Positions 11,248-43,788 of a stretch of DNA of 64,000 bases are shown here, in pieces. The position numbers were made by a program, and so were the translations under genes. The stretch comes from Halorussus amylolyticus (GTDB lineage: Archaea; Halobacteriota; Halobacteria; Halobacteriales; Haladaptataceae). Location of the stretch: the NCBI RefSeq assembly GCF_004143485.2, contig NZ_ML974133.1, positions 1-64,000 of the forward strand, in the 5' to 3' direction. The first letter of the stretch is position 1, and each line of letters opens with the position of its first letter. The notes beneath the pieces are model-generated. The model saw only the letters and a list, made by a program, of their open reading frames with translations, had not been told where the DNA came from and ran no database searches.

Positions 11248-11421
11248 ATGCCAATCAAGCCCGACTACGTCAAGAAGACTGGCACCATACTGCTCGACCG
11301 ATACCCCGAAGCCTTCACCAAGGACTTCGACCAGAACAAAGAGAGCGTCACGAAACTGACCAACATCGAGTCGAAGGGCGTCCGCAACCGCATCGCGGGC
11401 TACGTCACTCGGAAGAAGTAA
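11248..11421 (+). CDS. rps17e: 30S ribosomal protein S17e
   Basis: 57-residue small-subunit protein of the archaeal/eukaryotic S17e family. The sequence has the conserved order MPIKPDYVKKTG, LLDRYP, DFDQNKESV and SKGVRNRIAGYVTR. ATG 11248 is used because it is the family start and sits 24 bases after a TATA box; upstream residues in the same frame are not conserved. A structured repeat begins four bases after the stop. Confidence 0.95.
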   Translation: MPIKPDYVKKTGTILLDRYPEAFTKDFDQNKESVTKLTNIESKGVRNRIAGYVTRKK

Positions 11422-11424
11422 AAC

Positions 11425-11580
11425 AACCTTTTGCTGCGGGAGGCGCATAAACGCGCCTCCCTTGCAAAACGTTGATGAAAAACACGGCGTCACCTCCTCC
11501 TTCGCTTGGCGGTGCGCAGAGCGCACCGCCTGCGCTCAGTCGAAGGTTCCTTGGTCCGCTCCTCGCTACGCTCGTCGCGG
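11425..11580 (+). repeat. Structured dispersed repeat, copy A
   Basis: Copy A of a ~160-bp intergenic element. Shared blocks in order: ACCTTTTGCTGCG; hairpin 1 (GGGAGGCGC/GCGCCTCCC, 11438-11461); a TGCAAAACGTTGATGAAAA block; GCGTCACCTCCTCC (16S-tail-like, TCACCTCCT at 11490-11498); hairpin 2 (GGCGGTGCGC/GCGCACCGCC, 11508-11530); CAGTCGAAGGTTCCTTGG; and hairpin 3 ending CGCGG. Copies B and C keep the blocks but change the stem sequences while preserving pairing. Confidence 0.85.
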
Positions 11581-11677
11581 TACAATCACTTGTACTCTAC
11601 CGCAGGGGAAGGTCGAAGCTGTCGAAACAAATGTCGTTTCGCCCGGCGATACTTTCCACGGGTCACACCGTAATCCA
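11581..11677. other. Spacer between the two facing repeat copies
   Basis: 97 bases between facing copies A and B. I see no gene and no transposase remnant in it. The two copies and this spacer together fill the whole gap between S17e and asd. Confidence 0.4.
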
Positions 11678-11839
11678 CCGCGAGCGAACGCAGTGAGCGA
11701 GCGGACCAAGGAACCTTCGACTGAGCGAGAGCAAGGCGGCGGAGCCGCCTTGCTCGAAGCGAAGGAGGAGGTGACGCAGGATTTTCATCGACGTTTTGCC
11801 AGCGAGCGCCTCTTGGGGCGCGAGCGCAGCAAAAGGTCG
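11678..11839 (-). repeat. Structured dispersed repeat, copy B (inverted)
   Basis: Inverted partner of copy A. On the minus strand it reads ACCTTTTGCTGCG, hairpin 1 with a different stem, TGGCAAAACGTCGATGAAAA, GCGTCACCTCCTCCTTCG (plus-strand AGGAGGTGA at 11766-11774), hairpin 2 with an unrelated 12-bp stem (GAGCAAGGCGGC/GCCGCCTTGCTC, 11729-11755), CAGTCGAAGGTTCCTTGGTCC and hairpin 3. A partial extra ACCTTTTACTGC unit sits just beyond it at 11843-11858. Confidence 0.85.
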
Positions 11840-11914
11840 TGTGCAGTAAAAGGTCGTTGTGCAAGAACCAAGGGTATCCAAACCGTTTTCCTGCCGTAGC
11901 GCTCACCCACGACA

Positions 11915-43063: not shown

Positions 43064-43384
43064 TTACCCCTTCCGGAAGCCGACGAGGAAGCCGCCCGTG
43101 AACCCGGCACCTATGGAGAGCGTCGAGAGGATGCTCGTCACCCACGACGGCGGTTGGCCGCCCTGGGCGGCCTCGCCGGTCTTGAGTATCCCGGCGCTGA
43201 GGCGGTCCCAATCGACCGTGAGGATGCCGCGCGATTCGAGGAACTTGAACAGCGCGAGTTCGATGCCGACGATGACCGCGAGAAGCTTCGCGATTTTCTT
43301 CGCGGCGAAGCCGATGACGGCACCGATGACGGCACCCGAACCGAATTCGAGGCCGAGTTGCTGCGGGTCCAGACCTACGTCCAT
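43064..43384 (-). CDS. FUN14 family membrane protein
   Basis: 106 residues with the FUN14-type arrangement: a Gly-rich first helix GSGAVIGAVIGFAAKKIAKLLAVIVG, a central amphipathic stretch, and a second glycine-rich helix pair SILSTLSIGAGFTGGFLVGFRKG. In eukaryotes FUNDC1 is a mitochondrial mitophagy receptor; the archaeal proteins have no known role and lack the LIR-bearing N-terminus. Confidence 0.9.
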   Translation of the reverse strand: MDVGLDPQQLGLEFGSGAVIGAVIGFAAKKIAKLLAVIVGIELALFKFLESRGILTVDWDRLSAGILKTGEAAQGGQPPSWVTSILSTLSIGAGFTGGFLVGFRKG

Positions 43385-43788
43385 AATTCCATTCCCTCAA
43401 TGATAGCTTAAGGCTTTTGTGGACCAACCTTTTGCTGCGCTTGCCGCGCCACGGGCGCGGCGGCGCTGGCAAAAGGTTGATCAAAAGCGCTGCGTCACCT
43501 CCTCAGTCGGAGATGCGGCGGCAAGCCGCCGCACTCCTCCTTCGAAGGTTCCTTGGCCCGCTCACTCGTCGCTTCGCTCCTCGTTCGCGGCGGATTGCGG
43601 TGTACTCCCGTGGAACAGTCGGCCAGCGCGGTTTCGGTGGAAAAACGGGCGACCTACGTCTGTTCGAATACACTTCATCGAGGTTATGTTTCTCGTCGGA
43701 TTCAAAAGGGATGGGGGCGTACCCGTGGATATGGACGGGGTGCGTGCGCCAACCGGGGTGAAGGGCCGGCGAGGCTGAGGTCGTCGGT
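43385..43788. other. Intergenic region with repeat copy C
   Basis: 404 bases. The left part is copy C of the structured repeat. From 43591 to 43788 I see no gene, but an open frame runs into the DUF2209 gene from 43762 without a usable earlier start. Confidence 0.5.
43424..43590 (+). repeat. Structured dispersed repeat, copy C
   Basis: Same block order as copies A and B: ACCTTTTGCTGCG, hairpin 1 with an unrelated G+C-rich stem, TGGCAAAAGGTTGATCAAAA, GCGTCACCTCCTC (TCACCTCCT at 43495-43503), hairpin 2 with a third unrelated stem (TGCGGCGGC/GCCGCCGCA, 43514-43533), CTTCGAAGGTTCCTTGGCCC and hairpin 3. Follows FUN14, 39 bases beyond its start. Confidence 0.85.

Follow-up and report, generated by a model that had tools for sequence, protein, structure and literature searches.

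The window, as used here, is the whole stretch of 64,000 nucleotides that was analysed from Halorussus amylolyticus (contig NZ_ML974133.1, positions 1 to 64,000). Two facing copies of a structured element, A and B, lie between its S17e gene and asd, and a single copy, C, lies at 43.4 kb. The original prediction treated these three as copies of one element and described hairpin stems that differ between copies and stay complementary. This observation of covarying structured copies was confirmed: all three quoted stems were located and are perfectly complementary, and the covariance model R1 (167 positions, 36 pairs), whose seed of 35 copies included A and C but not B, detected B (Table 1). A third hairpin of A, which had been missed, is added here.

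Copy A begins 2 nt downstream of the S17e stop codon. Copy B has its 5′ end at the promoter edge of asd, 74 nt before the start codon, and copy C has its 5′ end 39 nt away from where a divergent gene starts. Beside B, the 5′ arm of an older copy remains. The blocks common to the facing copies (I1–I4) are 16–29 nt long with 88–100% complementarity. When folded as single strands and compared with dinucleotide shuffles, the copies gave z-scores of −5.1 (A), −3.1 (B), and −3.6 (C). The TC/TC loops in hairpin 3 of copy A correspond to tandem GA/GA on the opposite strand.

Table 1. Coordinates of the three copies and adjoining features in the window.
Feature	Position	Strand	Remarks
S17e gene	11248–11421		stop codon TAA at 11419–11421
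Copy A, whole conserved element	11423–11584	+	R1 match, 144.5 bits; BLAST seed for the family
Copy A, hairpin 1	11424–11474	+	includes T4 run at 11429–11432; basal arms CAAC/GTTG and TTTTGC/GCAAAA
Copy A, hairpin 1 apical stem	11438–11446/11453–11461	+	
Copy A, hairpin 2	11492–11547	+	closing pairs ACCT/AGGT
Copy A, hairpin 2 apical stem	11508–11517/11521–11530	+	
Copy A, hairpin 3	11556–11580	+	CCGC-TC-C-TC-GC-TAC-GC-TC-G-TC-GCGG; from sequence and family pattern
Copy B, facing A	11675–11840	−	R1 match, 148 bits; outside the model seed
Copy B, stem	11729–11740/11744–11755		perfectly complementary
Remnant of older copy, 5′ arm, beside B	11843–11861	−	CACAACGACCTTTTACTGC; from block I5 complementarity and sequence
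asd start codon	11915		
Divergent gene	43064–43384	−	
Copy C, single	43424–43587	+	R1 match, 147.6 bits
Copy C, stem	43514–43522/43525–43533		perfectly complementary

Distribution and anatomy of the family

Approximately 25 copies were found in the genome of H. amylolyticus using BLAST and R1. Matches to R1 were present in all 28 genomes of the host's family, at 3–44 copies per genome. In a class-wide sample of 145 haloarchaeal genomes, 106 had a match at E ≤ 1e-6, a threshold to be read with the roughness of R1 E-values in mind; among those without a match were several genomes of genus g7. A strict pattern search placed the element in Halorussus, Halobaculum, Natrinema, Haloterrigena, Natronorubrum, Halegenticoccus, Haloprofundus, Halobellus, and others. 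Plasmid and phage collections searched for similar DNA gave no match. At the gathering score, the sole Rfam match in the window was a tRNA, and a relaxed search returned matches far below gathering only, none of them credible. The open-access literature was also searched for a name given to such a repeat or motif in haloarchaea; none was found, in line with the original statement that no named family was known.

The full element is ~165 nt long and consists of three hairpins with conserved linkers between them; short copies consist of hairpin 1 alone. On the top strand, as in copy A, the order is stop codon, NCGACCTTTTGCTGC, hairpin 1, GCAAAACGTTGATGAAAAACACGGCGTCACC, hairpin 2, GGTTCCTTGGTCCGCTC, hairpin 3, and CGCGG. 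Every aligned copy has NCGACCTTTTGC or a variant of it as its 5′ end, and the linkers are conserved among haloarchaeal copies across the class. The size of hairpin 2 varies, from a few base pairs in L043 and L124 up to 28 bp in L079, and some relatives (L281, L236) lack it altogether. Additional hairpin modules lie between the linkers in L016, L021, and L063. In these three and in L064 (the host genome, G006, and G003), a two-hairpin module with variable, complementary stems is inserted between AAAAACAC and GGCGTCACC.

Covariation, stem exchange, and the folding strand

The stems do not evolve as unpaired sequence. Across the 35 aligned copies, 87.6% of structure cells pair, compared with 71.1 ± 0.8% in shuffles and 40–50% when partners are slid by 1–3 columns, both of these being controls that leave shared ancestry in. 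Both-sided changes numbered 192 cells against 67 ± 6 in shuffles, as expected from the original proposal that the stems are kept as pairs and do not simply drift; pair counts from R1-derived alignments are biased towards the model. In copy A, the hairpin-2 pair T11495–A11544 belongs to a column that occurs with all four Watson–Crick pairs. In 102 copies that were parsed separately, the base following CACC and its partner ahead of GGTT were C-G in 69, T-A in 17, G-C in 7, and A-T in 3, giving 96 paired against 54 expected; none of 20,000 shuffles reached 96, and neighbouring columns showed nothing comparable. The two basal pairs of hairpin 1 were each paired in 69 of 71 copies (26 and 43 expected). 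In these comparisons, too, shared ancestry is left in. Single compensatory changes were found as well, as in GATGCGGCGGC, GATACGGCGGC, and GATGTGGCGGC, where the arms match. Pairing between linkers (GACCAA/TTGGTC) was ruled out, as the GATGAA subfamily does not keep it.

Two close species (G004 and G014) share eight occupied sites, at which the hairpin-1 stem is kept in five cases and unrelated in three. The three exchange sites are a cdc48 paralogue (L105/L311), a PAC2 gene (L279/L281), and L296/L280 (different subfamily), and their flanks are about 90–97% identical. At the S17e site, where the comparison was accompanied by an asd tree, elements with unrelated stems occur in four genomes (G000, G006, G003, and G012) and a remnant in G009; the element is absent there from the remaining Halorussus genomes with the S17e–asd pair. 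Wholesale hairpin exchange is common. Because hairpin 1 is exchanged whole at three of eight sites, much of the apparent covariation reflects hairpin swapping or turnover of mobile copies rather than stepwise compensation. Joint replacement of both arms had been taken as the product of selection on a folded form; the maintained pairing upholds this claim in part, and the whole-hairpin swaps count against it.

The two-by-two internal loops are strongly one-sided: 269 of ~300 are TC/TC on the top strand (121 in hairpin 3, 99 in hairpin 2, and 49 in hairpin 1). Across 538 arms on the opposite strand, the resulting GA/GA loops are flanked as pyrimidine-GA-purine 392 times, in a mixed way 144 times, and as purine-GA-pyrimidine just twice. 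The pyrimidine-GA-purine context favours sheared tandem G.A pairs. Hairpin 3 loops on this strand are mostly GNA. RNA parameters predicted greater stability for the opposite strand in 118 of 123 copies, by 10 kcal/mol on average, and DNA parameters did so in 121 of 123, by 4.6 kcal/mol; in random 180-mers from the window, the strand difference under DNA parameters was 0.02 ± 4.0. The better-folding strand is predicted to be the reverse complement of copy A as printed, which is the template strand for copies behind genes. A symmetric cruciform, one of the originally suggested forms, is unlikely, since the conserved TC/TC loops stabilise one strand alone (as G.A). Counts of G.T against A.C were also tried as a test of the folding strand and proved uninformative, with the A.C excess in hairpin 2 falling nearly all in one conserved column and these mismatches rare and balanced elsewhere, so the strand call rests on the TC/TC loops and the energies.

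The apical stems contained 744 and 777 Watson–Crick pairs against 7 and 3 G.T or A.C (mismatch pairs <1%), in a count that begins at the longest perfect stem and leans towards perfection. Apical loops were dominantly 3 nt. Structured RNAs usually contain far more G.U pairs. From the near-absence of G.T and A.C together with the 3-nt loops, we infer DNA hairpin or palindrome copying rather than a classic RNA. Three further candidates were ruled out: an opposite-strand peptide (a Shine-Dalgarno-like GGAGGTGA followed by GTG), as the GTG is not kept in all copies; an anti-Shine-Dalgarno role for CACCTCCT, whose middle base takes all four letters with its partner changing along; and a box C or kink-turn, as the G.A pairs have no adjacent bulge and TGATGA is not conserved.

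Gene ends, insertion sites, and mobility

Using gene positions from a simple gene finder, the stop codon of a sense gene was located −3 to +4 nt from the 5′ end of the element in 40 of 71 copies, against a chance value of 1.7% (intergenic positions of the window). In the host genome, 12 of 27 matches are flush with a sense stop codon, or 13 when a phoU copy with a separately scored hairpin 1 is included. Copies also adjoin tRNA 3′ ends (L118, L263, L096, L124, L131, and L137) or a second copy of a tRNA 3′ end (L260 and L261), and L252 lies about 11 nt downstream of an SRP RNA. Further copies, B and C among them, lie ~40–75 nt from the start of a divergent gene, at the promoter edge. The 3′ side is not flush. 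Neighbouring genes run in the same direction around 26 copies and converge around 28. Facing pairs recur at many loci; single copies, which insert alone, are at least as common. In the A/B pair and the C4:218420/218690 pair, one member is at the upstream stop codon and the other at the downstream promoter.

Two side observations concern these settings. In L260 (1336–1500), L261, and L138, a short insert lies between the intact tRNA and the element; it opens with the tRNA 3′ part in inverted form, closes with the same part in direct orientation, and resembles a separate tRNA-associated mini-element. A second subfamily, in which CTCCTCCC...GGTCGTCGG replaces GTCACC...GGTTCCTTGG, forms mostly the second member of a facing pair (L079+1020, L162+10415, L176-5556, L179-4681, L049-1840, L045-1875, and L136-1685).

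Naming the genes in front from sequence, we take them to include two cdc48 paralogues, eIF1A, pstB, phoU, TFS, PAC2, DNA polymerase DP2, thermosome, RadA, and aRF1, a list that for other genomes comprises the best-scoring copies and is biased accordingly. Of 29 genomes, about 5 have the element behind cdc48, and of 30, about 10 have it behind phoU; these come from several families, and the other genomes lack it there. With the element, cdc48 ends in CAA TGA or CAA TAG (four genomes), and without it mostly in CAG plus a stop codon, as if the element had supplied the stop codon. Many upstream genes (both cdc48 paralogues, PAC2, and a 324-aa protein) end hydrophobic-aromatic-X (FQ, MYQ, GYM), similar to proteasome-binding HbYX tails, which may be due to chance, sampling bias, or target preference.

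Insertion is seen most directly at a site that is empty in G014 (L307, GGATT-AGGCGAACAACTGCCGCGCGCTGTC-GATGG) and occupied in G004 (L293), where the same 25-mer is doubled around a 69-nt hairpin-1 unit. This cleanest presence/absence polymorphism involves a hairpin-1-only relative, not a three-hairpin copy. The junction in L293 falls in the stop codon of the flanking gene, which then reads a new stop. Flanking duplications elsewhere measure 31 nt (L285), 41 nt (L291), 72 nt (L289), 110 nt (L295), 70 nt (L109), and 105 nt (L145); L145, which is full-length, spans the front part of a tRNA-Leu gene and has a whole tRNA on its far side. The hairpin-1-only units L285, L289, L291, L293, and L295 lie between 25–110-bp direct repeats copied from the 3′ end of the neighbouring gene. 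In three of them (L285, L289, and L293), the end of the repeat coincides with the neighbour's stop codon or comes within 2 nt of it. At L283 (G004, compared with L313), the gene end by the insertion differs both from its own duplicate and from G014, as if a foreign gene end had arrived together with the element.

One genome carries four near-identical copies at unrelated sites. Around most old copies, including A and B, flanking duplications are absent. The Y1 transposase (PF01797) was not found in the host genome (99.9% complete), with a positive Haloferax volcanii control, and is absent from 13 of 28 genomes of the family, although the element occurs in all 28. No transposase or other mobility gene lies between facing copies, which enclose ordinary genes only, and an autonomous version was not found. 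The element is mobile, and no transposon could be tied to it; that it might be a MITE of an identified transposon had been named as the case against the original prediction, and no such parent came to light.

Interpretation and comparison with known repeats

With moderate confidence, we regard the family as small non-autonomous mobile DNA elements of haloarchaea, similar to REPs and REPINs and with a mobiliser that was not found. The stem pairs are near-perfect, can be replaced whole at a fixed site, and carry G.A on one strand, which supports a mobile hairpin. Some mobilising machinery would recognise the G.A-bearing strand in single-stranded form, and selection would preserve hairpin shape, G.A loops, and linkers rather than the sequence of the stems. 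Stems would be exchanged among copies through recombination, template switching, or re-insertion. More loosely, settled copies may be kept because a T4 run 6–12 nt past a stop codon or tRNA end, together with hairpins, is harmless or useful behind genes, perhaps as a gene-end terminator or insulator. Recurrence at phoU, cdc48, and PAC2 in several families exceeds what a random parasite would show and hints at host benefit or strong targeting.

That recurrence at orthologous genes could also come from a cis-acting element of the host, a structured terminator or insulator placed where transcription units end, which selection would keep and which would spread only occasionally; we consider this rather unlikely. 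Here the T4 run that follows the stop codon or tRNA would halt RNA polymerase, aided by the template-strand hairpins. Flush placement in sense orientation after protein-coding genes, tRNA genes, and the SRP RNA fits such a role, as does the spacing of the T4 run behind the gene, and termination in Haloferax volcanii by a T stretch, and less efficiently by a hairpin, offers a precedent (PMC7237163). However, the element is patchy, being missing behind cdc48 in about 24 of 29 genomes and behind phoU in about 20 of 30, and some copies sit beside promoters instead of behind genes. The T4 run is also short relative to the T5C motif tested in H. volcanii, and the bulk of the element lies beyond it and hence outside the RNA.

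The covariation could alternatively come from a structured RNA of the opposite strand, antisense to the upstream gene, working either as a small RNA or within a convergent gene's 3′ UTR. Tandem G.A would stabilise RNA too, consistent with the strand preference under RNA parameters, and such an RNA, matching no named family, could be new. We nevertheless find it improbable, given the scarcity of G.U-type pairs in apical stems, the mostly 3-nt loops, the whole-stem exchange and mobility, and the similar numbers of same-direction and convergent settings, hence no common transcript architecture. Still less credible to us is mutation alone, in which template switching copies arm onto arm inside hairpins and covariation needs no selection. 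Perfect stems, the scarcity of one-sided intermediates, and the frequent occurrence of the same stem with reverse-complement loops (e.g., GAA/TTC, GGA/TCC, AAA/TTT) are what it would produce, yet arm-to-arm copying would erase the TC/TC mismatches, which are the rule, and the linkers are conserved across the class. On the mobile-hairpin reading that we prefer, strong covariation comes at least in part from mobile DNA and hairpin exchange and not from an RNA gene, which calls for caution in covariation-based RNA discovery.

Several known systems resemble the element in part. BOX elements of pneumococcus are modular intergenic repeats with stable hairpins and optional modules; the modular hairpin design is shared, but the sequence is unrelated and BOX elements are bacterial and not flush with stop codons. 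Integron attC sites fold on one strand, have a variable stem, and lie right behind genes, and tyrosine-integrase integration sites carry, next to the insert, a duplicate of the gene or tRNA 3′ end. The element shares the folded strand, variable stem, gene-end position, and 3′-end duplication, but its copies lie behind scattered core genes, not cassettes, and the duplication is copied from the target itself.

REP elements and REPINs of bacteria are partnered with RAYT transposases, and compensatory changes have been reported in the REPIN spacer hairpin (PMC3116915, PMC3733652). Both they and the element are short, extragenic, palindromic mobile repeats, at tens to hundreds of copies per genome, with frequent facing pairs and hairpins predicted in single-stranded DNA or mRNA. 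The element differs in its three hairpins, ~165 nt per unit, one-strand tandem G.A, position flush with stop codons, and 25–110-bp target duplications in recent copies; its own genome has no Y1/RAYT gene, and the GTAG/CGTC tag at the hairpin foot is missing from all aligned copies. PATEs of Haloquadratum walsbyi are likewise haloarchaeal and transposase-free, with palindromes near their ends and copies without terminal inverted repeats, but they make no target duplication and share their ends with IS605-type transposons (PMC3119063). For this element, no IS605-type relative came up in the search of the host genome for Y1 transposases or among the genes between facing copies. SMR-A, SMR-B, and the MITEs of Haloquadratum carry inverted repeats at their termini; SMR insertion produces no target duplication, and PATEs are the preferred target of SMR-A (PMC3119063). 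These are also small, mobile, and without transposase, the SMRs having no known mobiliser either. In contrast to SMR-A, the element prefers gene ends, and in contrast to MITEs, single copies have no terminal inverted repeat, duplications are not of fixed length, and a parent transposon was not found.

Since the element departs from REP/REPIN and from PATE in defining features that were tested, it is not filed as a member of either, though it works like them. The one-strand tandem-G.A design and the long, variable duplications point to an insertion chemistry undescribed for REPs, PATEs, and MITEs. We put forward only tentatively that an element which inserts at the very gene end with such duplications, is recognised as a single-stranded tandem-G.A hairpin array, and exchanges whole modules could represent an undescribed class of archaeal mobile DNA. 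This haloarchaea-wide repeat has seemingly gone unnamed despite its position behind cdc48, phoU, thermosome, S17e, tRNA, and SRP RNA genes. A related yet distinct hairpin repeat (GAACCTCTTTTGCGGGGGTCC...CCCCCGCAAAACCCGTTCATG) with a doubled 5′ end was observed behind cdc48 and phoU in G073 (L199 and L228).
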